Assembly (NCBI RefSeq): GCF_001605725.1
Contig: NZ_CP011530.1
Coordinates: forward strand, 558,001 to 622,000
DNA from: Mycobacteroides immunogenum
GTDB taxonomy: Bacteria > Actinomycetota > Actinomycetes > Mycobacteriales > Mycobacteriaceae
Direction: 5' to 3'
Length of the DNA stretch: 64,000 nt
The translations under genes and the position numbers were made by a program. The notes beneath the pieces are model-generated. The model was not told the origin of the DNA. It did no database searches and worked only from the letters and a program-made list of their open reading frames with translations. Positions 37,706 through 63,212 of this stretch are shown here, one piece after another. How positions within the stretch are numbered: the stretch's first letter is position 1; each line of letters opens with the position of its first letter.

Positions 37706-39265
37706 CTAGCTGTGCCGCGGGCGTGCCACTTGCGTAGATACCGTGCGGCCGCGCAGCTCAACGGTCTCGCCGACGTCCCAGCGCAGCGCTTCTTCGTCGC
37801 GGGCTTCCATGACCGCCGAGGCAGACGCGAGCACGTTTCCGGGCTCGTTCTTGGCCAGCTCGGTGAGCCGGGCCGCTTCGTTCACGGGGTCGCCGATGAC
37901 GGTGTACTCAAACCGGGCCTGGGCGCCGATGTGGCCGGCGATGGCTCGCCCGGCGGAGACGCCGATACCGAAGTCGTTGGAGCCCAGCACATTGGTGAGC
38001 TCGCCGGAAAGTTCGCGCGCGGCGGCCAAGGCTGCGGCGGCACCATCTGGATGGTCGATGGGGGCGCCGAAGATGGCGAGCGCGGCATCACCCTGGAACT
38101 TGTTGACGAAGCCGCCGTGCTTGTTGACGGTGTCGACGATGACTCGGAAGAACTCGTTAAGCACCCGCACGACCACGGCGGGCCCGCGGGTGGACGCCAG
38201 CTGAGTGGATCCCACCAGGTCGACGAAAAGAACCGCGACGCTGCGTTCCTGCCCGCCGAGCTCGGTGCCGTACTCGAGTGCGCGGCGTGCCACATCTTCA
38301 CCGACGTAGCGGCCGAACAGGTCGCGTAGGCGTTGCCGCTCGCCGAGATCGCGCACCATGTCGTTGAACCCCGCCTGCAACAGCCCCAGCTCGCTGGCGT
38401 CATAGATGGGTACGTGAGCGTTGTAGTTGCCACGTTGCACTTCGCTGAGTGCCCAACGCAGCTGGCGCAGCGGGTCGGCGATGGATGTCGCCACCAGCAG
38501 GGTGCCCATCAGTCCGATGGCCAGCGCGATGATCGCCAGGATCAGGATCGATCCGGTGAGGTTGTCGGCGTTGGACTTGAGGTACCCGGCGCGCTGTCCC
38601 ACGACGGTCAGCACAATCGCCAGAATCGGAACACCGGTGCTCAGTGCCCAGGTGAGTACCTGACGGACGATAACGCCAGGAGCGGTGACATTTTCGGGCA
38701 CGCCGCGCCGTAAGGCCTGGATGGCCACCGGGCGCAGGACGCGTTCGGACTGTAGGTACCCGATGATGCTGGTGGTGGTGGCACCGAGCACGGTTGCGAA
38801 TGCCGCGACCAGCACCGAGCTATGGGTGGACGACCAGGTGACCGCGACGAAGATGGCGCCTCCGACGAGCCACGTCGCGACACTGATGACGGTCCGGTAA
38901 AAGGGCATTTGCAGGGCCCGCACCCGGACCGCCTCGGAGCCTTCGGACTCGAAGTCGGGCGACCGGTACTGCCAGCGCAGCACTGGTAGCAGCAGATAGG
39001 TGCTGACGATGGCACCGACGACGAACAGGATGAACAGCGAGACGCCCAGAATGATGAGCCGCTGTGGGCCCAGTTCGGTCAGTTCTACGCGGTCGCTCGG
39101 CGGCAGGCCGAACCGCAGGAATCCCAGTACGAACAGAGCTCCGACCAGGTTCGACTGGGCGATACCCATGATGAAGAGAGGCCACGGTGTGCGCATGACC
39201 CACCGGGAGTACCGGGCTGCGCGTGCAAGTGGGCGCCGATCGGGCCTACCCTCCGCGCCAGTCAC
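37706..39265 (-). CDS. Membrane class III adenylate cyclase (Rv3645 type)
   Basis: A 519-aa membrane adenylate cyclase. Six hydrophobic segments fill the first ~280 residues, then a HAMP linker (ATSIADPLRQLRWALSEVQRGN) and a C-terminal class III catalytic domain. The two metal Asp are in VAVLFVDLVGSTQLA and KFQGDAALAIF. The family counterpart Rv3645 makes most cAMP in M. tuberculosis and affects drug tolerance and fatty-acid use. It is convergent with topA and starts at GTG 39265. Confidence 0.95.
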   Translation of the reverse strand: MTGAEGRPDRRPLARAARYSRWVMRTPWPLFIMGIAQSNLVGALFVLGFLRFGLPPSDRVELTELGPQRLIILGVSLFILFVVGAIVSTYLLLPVLRWQYRSPDFESEGSEAVRVRALQMPFYRTVISVATWLVGGAIFVAVTWSSTHSSVLVAAFATVLGATTTSIIGYLQSERVLRPVAIQALRRGVPENVTAPGVIVRQVLTWALSTGVPILAIVLTVVGQRAGYLKSNADNLTGSILILAIIALAIGLMGTLLVATSIADPLRQLRWALSEVQRGNYNAHVPIYDASELGLLQAGFNDMVRDLGERQRLRDLFGRYVGEDVARRALEYGTELGGQERSVAVLFVDLVGSTQLASTRGPAVVVRVLNEFFRVIVDTVNKHGGFVNKFQGDAALAIFGAPIDHPDGAAAALAAARELSGELTNVLGSNDFGIGVSAGRAIAGHIGAQARFEYTVIGDPVNEAARLTELAKNEPGNVLASASAVMEARDEEALRWDVGETVELRGRTVSTQVARPRHS

Positions 39266-40620: not shown

Positions 40621-40693
40621 GCCACCCTAGCTCAGTCGGTAGAGCAATTCACTCGTAATGAATAGGTCAGGGGTTCGATTCCCCTGGGTGGCT
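40621..40693 (+). tRNA. tRNA-Thr (anticodon CGT)
   Basis: Cloverleaf: acceptor GCCACCC with GGGTGGC, D-arm GCTC...GAGC, anticodon arm ATTCA-CTCGTAA-TGAAT with anticodon CGT, T-arm CAGGGG-TTCGATT-CCCCTG. The 3' CCA is encoded (40694-40696). A tRNA at this place is a known insertion hot-spot type, and a non-core cassette follows. Confidence 0.97.
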
Positions 40694-40696
40694 CCA

Positions 40697-40975: not shown

Positions 40976-41497
40976 ATGTGGTTTGCGCGACGCGGTGCCA
41001 GCAGTCATGGCGCGGTCGTTGCTGCGGTGGACCAGGTGCTTGCCGCGAGTGGCGGTGGGCAGGGATCGGTGATCGAGGTCGCACGGAGTTGGGCGCATGC
41101 GAACGGCCGGGTCATGGAGATCCAGGATGCACCGCTTGCGGCCGGGGTATTTGGTCAGTGGATCTCCTTTCCGGACCGCGACATAGTGCAGGTCGGTCAC
41201 GGCGTTGTCGGCCGAGACCGCACCATTGCTCACGAGTTGGGACATATGGTGTTGGGTCACCGGGGGCTGCCGGTCGCGGAGTTTGCGGCGGAACACGTCG
41301 AAGCCGTAGCTCCGGAACTTGTTGCTCGCATGCTGCAACGTAGCTGCGGCAGTGAGGATTTGGTGCACAACGACAATCGTTGGCCGGACGATGAACTGGC
41401 CGCCGAGCGTTTCGCGGGCCTGCTGATCCGCCGCATGCGATCCGGGCGCGGCACCCACACGCGGTGGAGTCCGTACGTGGATGACGCGCTGGGGTGA
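40976..41497 (+). CDS. ImmA/IrrE-like zinc metallopeptidase
   Basis: A 173-aa protein whose core is TIAHELGHMVLGH (HExxH near residue 85), with a downstream DELAAERFAGLLIRR segment providing the third acidic ligand, as in ImmA/IrrE proteases. There is no HTH in the chain. Start ATG 40976; the end overlaps the next gene by 4 bp (GTGA), so the protease is translationally coupled to two membrane proteins. ImmA proteins cleave a repressor; the nearest DNA-binding protein is the EspR-like gene at 43736. Cassettes of this kind are recurrent in actinobacteria but their role is unknown to me. Confidence 0.85.
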   Translation: MWFARRGASSHGAVVAAVDQVLAASGGGQGSVIEVARSWAHANGRVMEIQDAPLAAGVFGQWISFPDRDIVQVGHGVVGRDRTIAHELGHMVLGHRGLPVAEFAAEHVEAVAPELVARMLQRSCGSEDLVHNDNRWPDDELAAERFAGLLIRRMRSGRGTHTRWSPYVDDALG

Positions 41498-42645
41498 TCA
41501 GCCCGTGGACGTGGCAGCTCATGCAGACCGCGCGCTTTGCGTTTCTGCTGTGCTTCCTGCCGGTTCTGCTCTACAGGATTTGGCGGTTGTGGCGTTACCC
41601 GGCAACCGCTCCGGCGATTGCAGTCACCTGTTTCGGTGTCATCATGTGGTTTTGGCTGCTCACTTTCACCGACATTGTGTGGTCACTCATGCCGGCGCAG
41701 TTCCGCGCCGCCAGTATGGGTGGCTTGTTGGTCACCACGGTGGCGGCATGCGCACAGGTGTTTATTCTTGGCATCGGCGCATCCGCTTCTCAGGAGCACA
41801 TGCGGCGAGGTTTACGCGTAATCCTTGTCGTAACAGCGACGATCCTCGTCGTGGTCTCGCTGTCCATGAGCCAGAGCCAGGTGCTGTTGGCTACCAAGGA
41901 CTTACATGAGCTGACCAATGCGCTACTGGATGGTGCCGACGGCGGCGCGATCATTGGGTCGGTGGCGGGTAATGGATACCTAGCAGTGACACTGGTCCAG
42001 CTGGCTTGGGTTGGGTTCCGTCATGCGGACCGCACACCCGTCGGTACCGGATTGGGGATATTGGCGGTGGCCTCGTCTTTTGAGTTTGTTGCGGTGGCTT
42101 TGGGGGGAATCTGGCGTCCGCTCACCCGGGGGCACGATCTAGTGTCTGTTCGGTATGGGCTGATGCTGCAGAGCCTGGCGGGTAGCGTCGGCGTGACGTT
42201 GTTGATCGCCGGTTTTGTTTGGCCTCCAGTGATGCTACGTCTTCAGGCGTGGCGGGACAGTCGACGTCTTCGTCCGCTTCACGACAGTCTGGCACGCGCC
42301 TTCCCGCAGCTGTTTCCTCCAGAAGAGTCGCAAATGCGATTGTCGGACTTGGTGTTTGAGTGGACGACTCATATCCAGGATGGGTTGACTCTGCTGGCGC
42401 AGCGGGGCGGTGTACCACTTGAAACCGATCGTCCTGCGGCAGCCGACCTTTCGGCGCGGGCGGCAACAGTAGCAAAATGGCTTGTCGGCCAATCGGTTCC
42501 TGGGTTCAGCTGCGAATGGTTGCGGACTCCCGTTGGTGTCAGCGATGCGCGGTGGGTGCTTGCGGTATCCGACGGCTATCGCCGTTTTGGTGGCCAGCTC
42601 ATGATCGACCCAGCGGGCAGTCATGTGAAGGGTGCTGGTAGCTAA
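41494..42645 (+). CDS. MAB_1171c/DUF6545-family membrane protein, copy 1
   Basis: A 383-aa protein with seven to eight membrane helices (for example FAFLLCFLPVLLYRIW, IAVTCFGVIMWFWLL, VILVVTATILVVVSLSM, SLAGSVGVTLLIAGFVW) and a ~130-residue cytoplasmic C-terminal part with RRLRPLHDSLARAFPQLFPP and RLSDLVFEW. This is the pattern of the MAB_1171c family putative transporters (DUF6545), a name given without known substrate. GTG 41494 overlaps the protease gene; TAATG joins it to copy 2. The close tandem paralogue of identical length suggests a heterodimer. Confidence 0.85.
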   Translation: MISPWTWQLMQTARFAFLLCFLPVLLYRIWRLWRYPATAPAIAVTCFGVIMWFWLLTFTDIVWSLMPAQFRAASMGGLLVTTVAACAQVFILGIGASASQEHMRRGLRVILVVTATILVVVSLSMSQSQVLLATKDLHELTNALLDGADGGAIIGSVAGNGYLAVTLVQLAWVGFRHADRTPVGTGLGILAVASSFEFVAVALGGIWRPLTRGHDLVSVRYGLMLQSLAGSVGVTLLIAGFVWPPVMLRLQAWRDSRRLRPLHDSLARAFPQLFPPEESQMRLSDLVFEWTTHIQDGLTLLAQRGGVPLETDRPAAADLSARAATVAKWLVGQSVPGFSCEWLRTPVGVSDARWVLAVSDGYRRFGGQLMIDPAGSHVKGAGS

Positions 42646-43796
42646 TGGGCCACTCGGTAGGAGAGGGTCTGCAGATTGCGAGGGTCGCATTTCTGCTGTG
42701 TTTCCTACCGGTTCTGCTGTACAGGCTGTGGCGACTTTGGCGGTACCCGACGTCGGTTCCGGCGATCGCGGCCACCAGCTTTGGGATATGCGTGTGGCTG
42801 TGGCTACTAGTGTTCACTGAATGGGTGTGGTCGGCCATGCCGCCGCTGGCCCGCGCTGTCAGTTTGGGTGGCTGGTGGACTGTCGCGATAGCGGGATGCT
42901 TGCAGGTCTTTGTGATCGGTATTCGTGGCGATACATCTCCGGCTCGGATACGCCGCGGACTTGCGACTACCTTGGCGGCAACCGCGGTCTTCTTGATCGC
43001 GGTTGCCGTTGCGGCAAGCCAAAGCCAGCTGCTGCTCACAACAAACGATATTTATGCTGCTATCAATGCGCTCACCGTGAGCGGCGATTTCTGGTCTAGG
43101 ACCGCGTTGGTGTTAGGCGGCAGTTTCGCGTCCGTGGTCTTCGCTCAGCTCGCGTGGGTGGGGCTACGGCATGCGGATTGCACACCGGTTGGCACCGGTC
43201 TAGGACTACTCGCTGCCGCATCTGTACTGGAGATCGTGGCAACGGTAATCGGTGGGGTCCTGCGGCCGCTCGGTGTGGGAGGGGGCGTCATGGACCACCC
43301 TTTCTGGTTATGGGTTGGAACCATGGCCGGGTGTGTCGGCGCGATCCTGATCACGGCGGGTTTTCTGTGGCCGCCGGTAGCGCTGCGGGTCCGCGCGTTG
43401 CGAGACCAGCACCGACTCCGGCCATTGCACGATTCGATGGCTGGCTTGTTCCCGCAGCTTTTCCCGCCGAAAGAATCGCGAATTAGATTGTCGGACTTAG
43501 TATTCGAATGGCAATCGCATATCCAAGACGGCCTAACTTTGGTGGCGCAGGCCCGCGAAGTGCCACTCTCAAATGATCAGCCAGTGGCTACGGATCCGTC
43601 AGAATTGGCCGCGGCAGTAGCCGGATGGCTTATCGGTCAATCGGTTCCGGGACTCAGTTGCGAATGGCTACGCCCGCCGGCGGGTGTAGCCGATCATGAC
43701 TGGATACTCGCCATTGCCGACGCCTATCGAGAGCGTCAGGACGACTTCGCGGCCCCGGCTTCCTTGTCGGGAATGCCCTCGACCTTGCGCAGATGA
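42645..43796 (+). CDS. MAB_1171c/DUF6545-family membrane protein, copy 2
   Basis: Also 383 aa and clearly a duplicate of copy 1: VAFLLCFLPVLLYRLWRLWRYP near the start and HRLRPLHDSMAGLFPQLFPPKES, RLSDLVFEW, HIQDGLTLVAQ in the cytoplasmic tail nearly repeat copy 1, while the loops have diverged. ATG 42645 shares a base with the stop of copy 1. Its last 61 bp overlap the convergent EspR-like gene. Loss of either copy by recombination would be easy, so retention of both implies different roles. Confidence 0.85.
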   Translation: MGHSVGEGLQIARVAFLLCFLPVLLYRLWRLWRYPTSVPAIAATSFGICVWLWLLVFTEWVWSAMPPLARAVSLGGWWTVAIAGCLQVFVIGIRGDTSPARIRRGLATTLAATAVFLIAVAVAASQSQLLLTTNDIYAAINALTVSGDFWSRTALVLGGSFASVVFAQLAWVGLRHADCTPVGTGLGLLAAASVLEIVATVIGGVLRPLGVGGGVMDHPFWLWVGTMAGCVGAILITAGFLWPPVALRVRALRDQHRLRPLHDSMAGLFPQLFPPKESRIRLSDLVFEWQSHIQDGLTLVAQAREVPLSNDQPVATDPSELAAAVAGWLIGQSVPGLSCEWLRPPAGVADHDWILAIADAYRERQDDFAAPASLSGMPSTLRR

Positions 43797-44158
43797 TCGA
43801 CCATGTCCGCGATCGCCTGTCGGCTGTGCTCGGATAGCGCGTAGCTGCGTTGTGCGATTTCACGCACCTTCGAGTCGCGTAGCTGCACCAGCCAGTCGAG
43901 GTCGCGGTTCACCGATGCGGCGTAGTTGGCGTCATAGAAGTAGGCGGGGCTCACCTGAAAGAACTCGGCCAGCGCCGTCACGATTTCGGGTGCGGGGTTC
44001 GACCGCTCGCCCTTGCGTAGGAGCGATAGATATGGCGAAGAGACCTCGACGCCGCGCTCGCCAAGTGCGGCGACCACCTCGTTCAGTGAATACGGGCCAC
44101 GCCCGGCGGGATGCACCGTGGCAAACAGATGGCTCAATCGCTGCGAAAAGTCCGGCAT
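43736..44158 (-). CDS. EspR-like nucleoid-associated regulator
   Basis: A 140-aa HTH protein close in layout to EspR (Rv3849, 132 aa): FSQRLSHLFATVHPAGRGPY, the HTH with VSSPYLSLLRKGERSNP, ALAEFFQVSPAYFYD, and the C-terminal dimerisation part WLVQLRDSKVREIAQRSYALS. EspR dimers bind many genomic sites and regulate ESX-1 genes. This paralogue is convergent with the protease-membrane cassette and overlaps its last gene, so it is probably part of the same cassette; it could be the ImmA substrate (inference). Confidence 0.85.
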   Translation of the reverse strand: MPDFSQRLSHLFATVHPAGRGPYSLNEVVAALGERGVEVSSPYLSLLRKGERSNPAPEIVTALAEFFQVSPAYFYDANYAASVNRDLDWLVQLRDSKVREIAQRSYALSEHSRQAIADMVDHLRKVEGIPDKEAGAAKSS

Positions 44159-44420
44159 CGCACCCCCTCACATACTTCCATTCTGCACTTCAACCATACA
44201 CGCCGATCTTGTGCTGCTCATCGTAGGTTCCGGGGTGTCTGGTGGGAGTGTTACTTATCGAGATGGTAAGTGATTGACAAGTACTATTTACTGACAGTAA
44301 TGTCCGAGGTGTTCGTTCGGCTAATCGCGATCGGACGCGTCGGCTGGTCAATCGTTGTGCTCATCGTGGGGTTGGGCACAGCGAGGGGTCAGCCGTATTT
44401 TGTCGGAAAGTGTGGCCGCC
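44159..44420. promoter_or_regulatory. EspR-like gene promoter region with palindromes
   Basis: TTACTGACAGTAA (44288-44300) is a perfect palindrome around A, and ACTTA...TAAGT arms lie at 44251-44271. Both are AT-rich relative to the surroundings and fall 95-140 bp upstream of the EspR-like start. No gene is seen in the 262 bp. Confidence 0.45.
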
Positions 44421-45143
44421 CTACCGCAGGCCCAGCGCGCTGTGATGCACGAGCGCGCCGGCAATGAGAATCGTTCCGAGGCACAGAAAGATCACCCGGA
44501 TCGCGGTGGGGCCGTAGCGTGTCACGGTCCGCACCAGGCCGCGCTGCACGCGCCGTGCGCGCGGGGAGCGCCGCGTGGAGAGCGCCAGGATGAGCAGGCT
44601 CGGCAGGATAGCTATCACCCCGTAGCCGACCAGCAGCAGCGGCCAGGCCGCGGGAAGCGGATGGCGGGAGGCGAGCATCGCCAGCGCGCTCAAGTAGGGA
44701 ACCGAGGTCGGAGCCTCGGCGTATCCGAGTGCGAGACCGACAAGGGCGAGTAGCCACGGATGGCGGCGGGCCACATTCCGGATCCACGGTGGTGTCACCG
44801 GCTCGGAGAACCAGGTCAAGGCGGCAACCGCGATCAGCAGGACTCCGATGACCAGCTGGGCCCAGTACCGGGTTGATGGAGTGATCTCGGAACCCGCGGC
44901 CACATCGGTCAGCGAGCGCACGCCGAGCACCGTCGCCAATCCAAACGTGAACAGCGCCACAAACAATCCAGTGACGAAGCTCAGGCCACCGGGGAACACC
45001 GATCGCCGTTCCAGCCGGGTCACGTAGACGATCGTGGTGGCGACGCCGATATTGAGCACGTTGAGGGCGTCCAGGCAAGCGAATCCCACGAACGCCAACA
45101 ACAGGGTGAGCACGAATGCAGAACTTACGGTAATGCCGATCAT
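44421..45143 (-). CDS. GAP-family membrane protein
   Basis: A 240-aa membrane protein with six hydrophobic segments (SAFVLTLLLAFVGFACLDALNV, FVTGLFVALFTFGLATVL, WAQLVIGVLLIAVAALTWF and others). The family pattern is that of Gap/Sap proteins, needed for export of glycopeptidolipid or sulfolipid-1 in mycobacteria and related to LysE-type transporters. ATG 45143 is the likely start; the frame opens 69 bp earlier. It stands alone, divergent from the CPBP gene. The lipid handled is unknown. Confidence 0.8.
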   Translation of the reverse strand: MIGITVSSAFVLTLLLAFVGFACLDALNVLNIGVATTIVYVTRLERRSVFPGGLSFVTGLFVALFTFGLATVLGVRSLTDVAAGSEITPSTRYWAQLVIGVLLIAVAALTWFSEPVTPPWIRNVARRHPWLLALVGLALGYAEAPTSVPYLSALAMLASRHPLPAAWPLLLVGYGVIAILPSLLILALSTRRSPRARRVQRGLVRTVTRYGPTAIRVIFLCLGTILIAGALVHHSALGLR

Positions 45144-62912: not shown

Positions 62913-63212
62913 CAGTGTGCCCTATGGGCACCGCGACCGGAAATCGAGACAGGTCGCCAACCTGGCGCCGAGCATTTCAATCACCGTGCGCAATGCGCTT
63001 GACGCTGGCGGCGGCCCGCGGGCACACTGCGCTCAGGTCATGAGAACCAGCGATAAGCCCTGGCTAGCTGGTCGGCAACCCTCCTCCATGCCGTTCGCCT
63101 GCACGCGAGCGGCGCATCCACGGCGGGGTGCTCCAGGTGACGACCTGGCCGCGCGCGACCGTGCGCGGCAAGCGTGGACTCGCCGGGCGGGTCCGGTGAG
63201 ATGGGATGTCAC
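62913..63212. other. Gene-free region between terC leader and PLP-enzyme gene
   Basis: About 300 bp without a convincing gene. It should hold the divergent promoters of the riboswitch-controlled terC transcript and of the PLP-enzyme gene. I see no repeat or tRNA in it. Confidence 0.45.

Follow-up and report, generated by a model that had tools for sequence, protein, structure and literature searches.

A second espR-type cassette in Mycobacteroides immunogenum as a candidate membrane-to-regulator signalling module

Results

An EspR-family regulator encoded with a peptidase and membrane proteins

A 64,000-nt stretch of the Mycobacteroides immunogenum genome (contig NZ_CP011530.1, positions 558,001 to 622,000; hereafter the window) carries four adjoining genes that encode a predicted ImmA/IrrE-like zinc peptidase (P), two tandem predicted seven-helix membrane proteins (M1 and M2, collectively M) and, convergently, a regulator of the EspR family (EspR2; E denotes the family). 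Sequence comparison shows that it duplicates the core espR locus, and in the genomes sampled this second copy was confined to the Mycobacteroides group. We regard it as somewhat probable that it represents a second copy of an actinobacterial E-P-M signalling module in which M senses a signal and P cleaves E, a reading built on gene association, predicted folds, shared presence and absence, and selection.

Among 198 sampled genomes of the genus, including that of M. immunogenum itself (G000), an alignment search found M in 118 and P in 131, with strong P places (E < 1e-16; weaker rows were dropped, hence 13 genomes with weak matches only) confined to the 118 M-bearing genomes. In all 118, P and M lay on the same strand at most 1.5 kb apart, and at least 101 had, among the matches listed, an opposite-strand EspR within 4.5 kb; for two of the remaining 17, the EspR match fell on another contig. 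EspR occurred in 196 of the 198 genomes, including 79 of the 80 that have neither P nor M. The named loci found via P (the nearest 80 of 209) included Mycolicibacterium, Mycobacteroides, Nocardia, Prescottella, Rhodococcus and Antrihabitans, and were arranged as P-M-E in 68 cases and P-M-M-E in six, the others showing a broken M1 (one), a contig end (three), a double arrangement (one) or P against M (one).

The core set of M. immunogenum, more distant from the window cassette than are its close versions, comprises P, M and then a convergent 132-aa EspR (G000:C1:177 kb), the orthologue of M. tuberculosis EspR, to which it is 79% identical. EspR2 belongs to the same family along its whole length, sharing 46-47% identity with both core EspR and M. 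tuberculosis EspR (Rv3849; 47%), and matched the solved M. tuberculosis protein at E 1e-34 (residues 3-129 of 140 aligned), which bears out the EspR-like label given in an earlier, sequence-only reading of the window. In an EspR tree, EspR2 fell in a clade separate from core EspR, and it is therefore a paralogue and not the espR orthologue. A close version of the window cassette was present in seven of the 198 genomes (G000, G050, G088, G092, G147, G169 and G190), two of which carry three M genes. The EspR model was fairly specific, matching four of 60 scored candidates in the M. immunogenum genome, three of them beside P or M.

The association also reaches outside the genus. P-M genes with a convergent EspR-like gene recur in a second genus of the family (L091-L094), and a co-directional set of EspR-like XRE, P and membrane protein genes was found within the genus (L108-L110) and in further genera of its family (L104, L105), as well as in further families of the class (L285, L287, L289, L294, L295, L297, L301) and in a deep branch (L198). 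M adjoined P in 12 of 20 loci with distant P matches, and an EspR-anchored search of the class yielded 28 places in 23 of 148 genomes, 20 of them having P and/or M no more than 1.5 kb away. Conservation of the four-gene association thus reaches well past the close relatives, the opposite of the outcome (no co-occurrence outside them, or scattered families) on which the sequence-only reading would have been given up.

P relatives were detected on 33 of 72,556 plasmid records, 30 of them from Rhodococcus, and the module can also sit on large plasmids, as seen in the two of these 33 regions that were read (L233:3929-6691 and L234:3887-5869). The Rhodococcus region contains P, M, a further open reading frame (ORF) and then a convergent EspR-like gene; the Tsukamurella region contains P, an ORF that overlaps it by 4 bp and is unmatched by the M model, and a convergent EspR-like gene. 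The latter region adjoins arabinosyltransferase (cell-wall) genes, as do, by eye, the chromosomal loci L097 and L098.

Some arrangements in the genus depart from these layouts. P and M face each other in a third type found in two Mycobacteroides genomes (L049:2577-4246 and L050:2160-3871), where the fetched stretch held no EspR-like gene; Mycobacteroides sp. LB1 has two divergent P-M pairs with one EspR-like gene (L118:2677-6567); and M1 is in pieces in an M. chelonae assembly (L116:5269-6575). An EspR-like stretch of M. immunogenum (L277; G000:C1:3647833-3648210) lies inside a 651-aa open frame with no P or M nearby.

Organization of the window cassette

P and M1 are joined by a GTGA overlap and M1 and M2 by a TAATG overlap, and the final 61 bp of M2 are antisense to the 3' end of the convergent EspR-like gene (Table 1). 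These overlaps, the HELGH protease, the two 383-aa membrane proteins and the position behind tRNA-Thr, all pointed out previously from the sequence, were confirmed at their coordinates. The termini of M1 and M2, described as near-identical in that account, turned out to be merely similar, the two proteins being ~53% identical. All cassette genes are under purifying selection, with ratios of nonsynonymous to synonymous substitution (dN/dS) of 0.02-0.07 for the EspR-like gene, 0.05-0.12 for P and 0.20-0.27 for M (19 comparisons with five relatives, one P ratio not being computable); these values are rough, because dS often exceeded 1.

Table 1. Features of the cassette and its surroundings (window coordinates)
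Feature	Position	Strand	Description
tRNA-Thr (CGT)	40621-40696	+	neighbour outside the module; 3' end 279 bp ahead of P
P	40976-41497	+	173 aa; predicted ImmA/IrrE-like zinc peptidase, bare catalytic domain
M1	41494-42645	+	383 aa, GTG start; predicted seven-helix membrane protein, MAB_1171c/DUF6545-like
M2	42645-43796	+	383 aa; tandem paralogue of M1
EspR2 (EspR-like)	43736-44158	-	140 aa; EspR-family XRE regulator
Conserved block	44252-44303		two back-to-back promoter-like pairs, by eye; kept in relatives
Palindrome TTACTGACAGTAA	44288-44300		upstream of espR2; candidate operator
Long hairpin, then T run	44340-44396	+	upstream of espR2; 25 predicted pairs

A tRNA gene lies upstream of P in eight of 15 loci scanned for tRNAs, some of which represent the same genome twice; in each of the eight it is tRNA-Thr, and the seven tRNA-free loci comprise three of the core or other types and four of the window type. 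A mobile element at the tRNA was considered and ruled out: the 3' end of the tRNA has no second copy in the window, so that nothing points to an element integrated there today.

The putative promoter-like pairs in the conserved block read TTGTCA-17-TAAGTA toward espR2 and TTGACA-18-TAATGT toward the plus strand; a consensus promoter scan did not list them, which argues against their being promoters. Of the 11 window-type loci inspected, ten carry the candidate operator unaltered and the remaining one has a single change in it. Across ten sequences, the hairpin showed both-sided changes in 2/25 pairs, while 3/25 pairs were disrupted in at most two of the sequences; L115, the eleventh sequence, was excluded from the fold because its outer stem differs. 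The hairpin matched no Rfam family, and may form the end either of the P-M transcript, once this has run antisense across espR2, or of a small divergent RNA. A small ORF over the hairpin (44270-44467) was rejected, its frame not being kept in relatives, as judged by eye.

A bare IrrE-like peptidase and a receptor-like membrane protein

Comparison of structure models gave P the IrrE/CapP (PprI) fold, and its HELGH motif (residues 86-90) is invariant, together with E140 and E144, in 37 aligned sequences; one of these two glutamates is presumably the third zinc ligand. Because P scores under the Pfam M78 gathering threshold (15.3 vs 22 bits), we name it IrrE-like by fold and motif and not as an M78 member; 25 of the 37 aligned relatives matched M78 at E <= 0.01. 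The DUF6545 label of the sequence-only reading, like the M78 label, falls below the Pfam cut-offs for these proteins. P is 94% identical to an M. franklinii protein and 92% identical to a M. immunogenum protein, and a PDB sequence search with P and M returned CapP at E 0.85 only, other matches being at chance level. ImmA, PprI and CapP inactivate XRE repressors (PMC2701414, PMC10904395; partial texts), and the modelled fold suggests that P is suited to cleaving an XRE repressor.

M is modelled as a seven-helix membrane protein with a cytosolic C-terminal helical domain, an assignment for which VIA-align was the single method and which barely covers the C-terminal domain. M1 and M2 span most of the NF042915 model (MAB_1171c family), with 55.6 and 43.3 bits against a curated cut-off of 100; the DUF6545 match of M1 is under the Pfam cut-off, and M2 has no Pfam match whatever. 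A true NF042915 member (309 bits) is encoded in the M. immunogenum genome within an XRE-P-M operon (L191). The family is named a putative transporter, and knocking out MAB_1171c in M. abscessus removed about half of the biofilm and gave a lower cefoxitin minimum inhibitory concentration, 4 vs 16 ug/mL (PMC8707978, partial text); in the literature searched, MAB_1171c occurred in a single paper and DUF6545 in none.

In the deep-branching actinobacterium L198 (536-2868), genes for an EspR-like XRE protein and P accompany an M that ends in an HD_5 domain. Since HD_5 there replaces the usual end of M, the membrane part looks as if it were a receptor with exchangeable output. The profiles of M and of the L198 protein did not match significantly, yet NF042915 matched the latter at 7e-22. 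The association with a peptidase and an EspR-type regulator gives DUF6545/MAB_1171c proteins, currently named transporters, a likely receptor role.

An exported stalk protein at the core locus

Just upstream of core P lies a gene for a predicted exported protein, X (for example at L042:878-2587), which comprises a signal-like start, a Pro/Gly/Thr-rich stalk of low complexity, a single membrane helix on the C-terminal side and a conserved tail with the motif GYRQA.AGH.VRA...RF. X was seen at 56/80 named loci versus 0/40 loci that carry espR only. A search with the 67-residue tail found it in 118 of the 198 genomes, a set identical to that of M, with further unlinked copies in many; 20 such unlinked regions held one X gene in 19 cases and two in one, in several recurring neighbourhoods. 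X belongs to an exported family that Pfam and NCBIfam do not name: no NCBIfam model matched at E 0.01 (n = 8) and no Pfam model matched (n = 7), the X-like proteins of L091 and L092 giving sub-threshold pentapeptide matches only. The window cassette has no adjoining X, the one X of M. immunogenum being at the core locus, and, as for P and M, the presence of X may be bound to clades.

Genomes that keep EspR alone

No P, M or X was found near espR in 40 EspR-only loci, nor any P or M remnant; apparent remnants were an artefact of an over-long query antisense to the neighbouring DUF6474 gene. This Rv3850-like gene starts 65-188 bp after espR (median 121) in the 40 loci, whereas P, M and, if present, X sit between espR and the DUF6474 gene in 60 of the 80 named cassette loci, these 60 being those whose fetched stretch reached that gene. 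The EspR tree implied three changes of the EspR-only label, at least two of them forced by well-supported branches, in an alignment of few columns with an unsettled bootstrap and ten rows skipped by trimming. M. tuberculosis, itself not identified among the 198 genomes, has an EspR nearest to those of species with EspR alone: the best match is 91%, and of 119 ranked matches the 32nd is the first from a species with the cassette. In M. tuberculosis the stop of rv3848 lies just ahead of espR, according to a figure legend (PMC3315491, partial text).

For EspR-only species, loss of P, M and X is the likelier reading, because other genera share the P-M-E layout, and EspR would then persist in them as a DNA-binding protein that is permanently stable. 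We put forward, as a tentative and rather doubtful extension, that a receptor M shaped like a G-protein-coupled receptor and a wall-spanning X control P, which destroys an EspR-family regulator, and that in the tuberculosis lineage EspR was orphaned from this pathway, turning into a permanent nucleoid protein and virulence regulator after P, M and X were lost.

Discussion

In the simplest working model M is the sensor. It would perceive an envelope signal, at the core locus jointly with X, and its cytosolic domain would recruit or activate P; P would then cut E within its C-terminal part, and the target genes of E, its own divergent promoter region included, would change expression. The nature of the signal, the activation of P, the cleavage and the direction of regulation are conjectural elements of this scheme. 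The sequence-only reading had likewise envisaged a membrane sensor pair acting through the protease on a presumed EspR-like repressor, which the conserved association and the fold of P support in part. It had named stress signalling or anti-phage defence as options, the latter unsupported by phage records, viral contigs or the neighbours scanned, and it had noted neither the core espR copy nor X.

Several observations weigh against the signalling module. M. tuberculosis EspR functions without P and M. The joint absence of P, M and X may trace to few lineages, so that the equality of the 118-genome sets does not amount to 118 independent events. The candidate operator has one exact match in the 5.57-Mb genome of M. 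immunogenum and, being unique, shows no regulon. Among the distant-P loci, 6/20 show no M and 2/20 have M and E without a recovered P frame, and 8/28 EspR-like places lack any clear P or M at a distance of up to 1.5 kb. The model of P is poor at residues 1-8, 117-134 and 160-173; the best PADLOC matches of P and the EspR-like protein, capP and capH, are weak (5.7e-5 and 2.9e-4); and cleavage and interaction among P, M and E are a proposal from genes and folds.

An alternative that we hold unlikely, yet the most credible of those considered, is that P and M process, sort or turn over the C-terminal tail of X while EspR merely regulates the locus. X-tail proteins share their 118 genomes with P and M and have extra copies elsewhere, and the motif, single membrane helix and short conserved tail of X resemble known C-terminal sorting signals. 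However, the fold of P is like that of cytosolic IrrE and CapP, whose known targets are XRE repressors (PMC2701414, PMC10904395; partial texts), the window cassette lacks an adjoining X, and in co-directional operons it is the XRE gene that precedes P. A toxin-antitoxin pair, with P as toxin, the EspR-like protein as antitoxin and M as accessory, seems improbable. Xre-COG2856 pairs were proposed as such systems in 2009, although the authors excluded membrane protein-Xre pairs and allowed Xre-COG2856 a regulatory role (PMC2701414, partial text). EspR does persist without P, as an orphan antitoxin could, and some P relatives are plasmid-borne, but the core copy has a fixed place on the chromosome, flanked by espR and the DUF6474 gene, and is not a mobile pair, and M accompanies P in all 118 genomes.

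That the cassette serves anti-phage defence, or controls it in the manner of CapH-CapP in cyclic-oligonucleotide-based anti-phage signalling (CBASS), is very improbable. The top PADLOC matches are indeed those of this pair, but no P relative was found in 50,697 phage records or in viral contigs, and the seven window neighbours scanned gave one clear match, an adenylate cyclase caught by Pycsar cyclase models through its cyclase domain, besides a marginal one for the DNA polymerase III delta' gene (PDC-M55B, E 0.009), neither of which is a defence system. The defence option of the earlier reading is accordingly dropped. Least credible is a chance neighbourhood or shared terminator with no functional tie: convergent genes need not have a common function, but the presence sets are identical, P and M are translationally coupled, and convergent and co-directional layouts recur across families.

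The signalling module that we favour has the peptidase fold and an XRE partner in common with PprI/IrrE-DdrO of Deinococcus and ImmA-ImmR of ICEBs1 (PMC10904395, PMC2701414; partial texts). The extra GAF-like domain of PprI is missing from P, which is encoded alongside a seven-helix membrane protein; unlike ICEBs1 ImmA-ImmR, the window copy shows no sign of a mobile element; and P is much shorter than CapP, with no CBASS genes among the seven window neighbours scanned. The module thus differs from known Xre-COG2856 pairs in its EspR-family regulator, its bare peptidase and the seven-helix protein always present in mycobacterial sets. The literature searched held no report of EspR with IrrE, or of EspR, ImmA and a mycobacterium together.

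EspR is among the best-studied DNA-binding proteins of tuberculosis bacteria, and how its activity is controlled is unclear. The widespread tie of its family to a peptidase and a receptor-like protein offers a testable answer for the many mycobacteria that have them, and suggests that regulators of the EspR type were made for being turned off by a signal from the membrane; it would also supply an evolutionary reason why EspR could act as a stable architectural protein where P and M are absent.

Elsewhere in the window, the HAMP-adenylate cyclase gene (37706-39265, minus strand) adjoins the DNA polymerase III delta' gene, and a SAM-IV riboswitch lies at 63036-63180 on the plus strand (98.4 bits).
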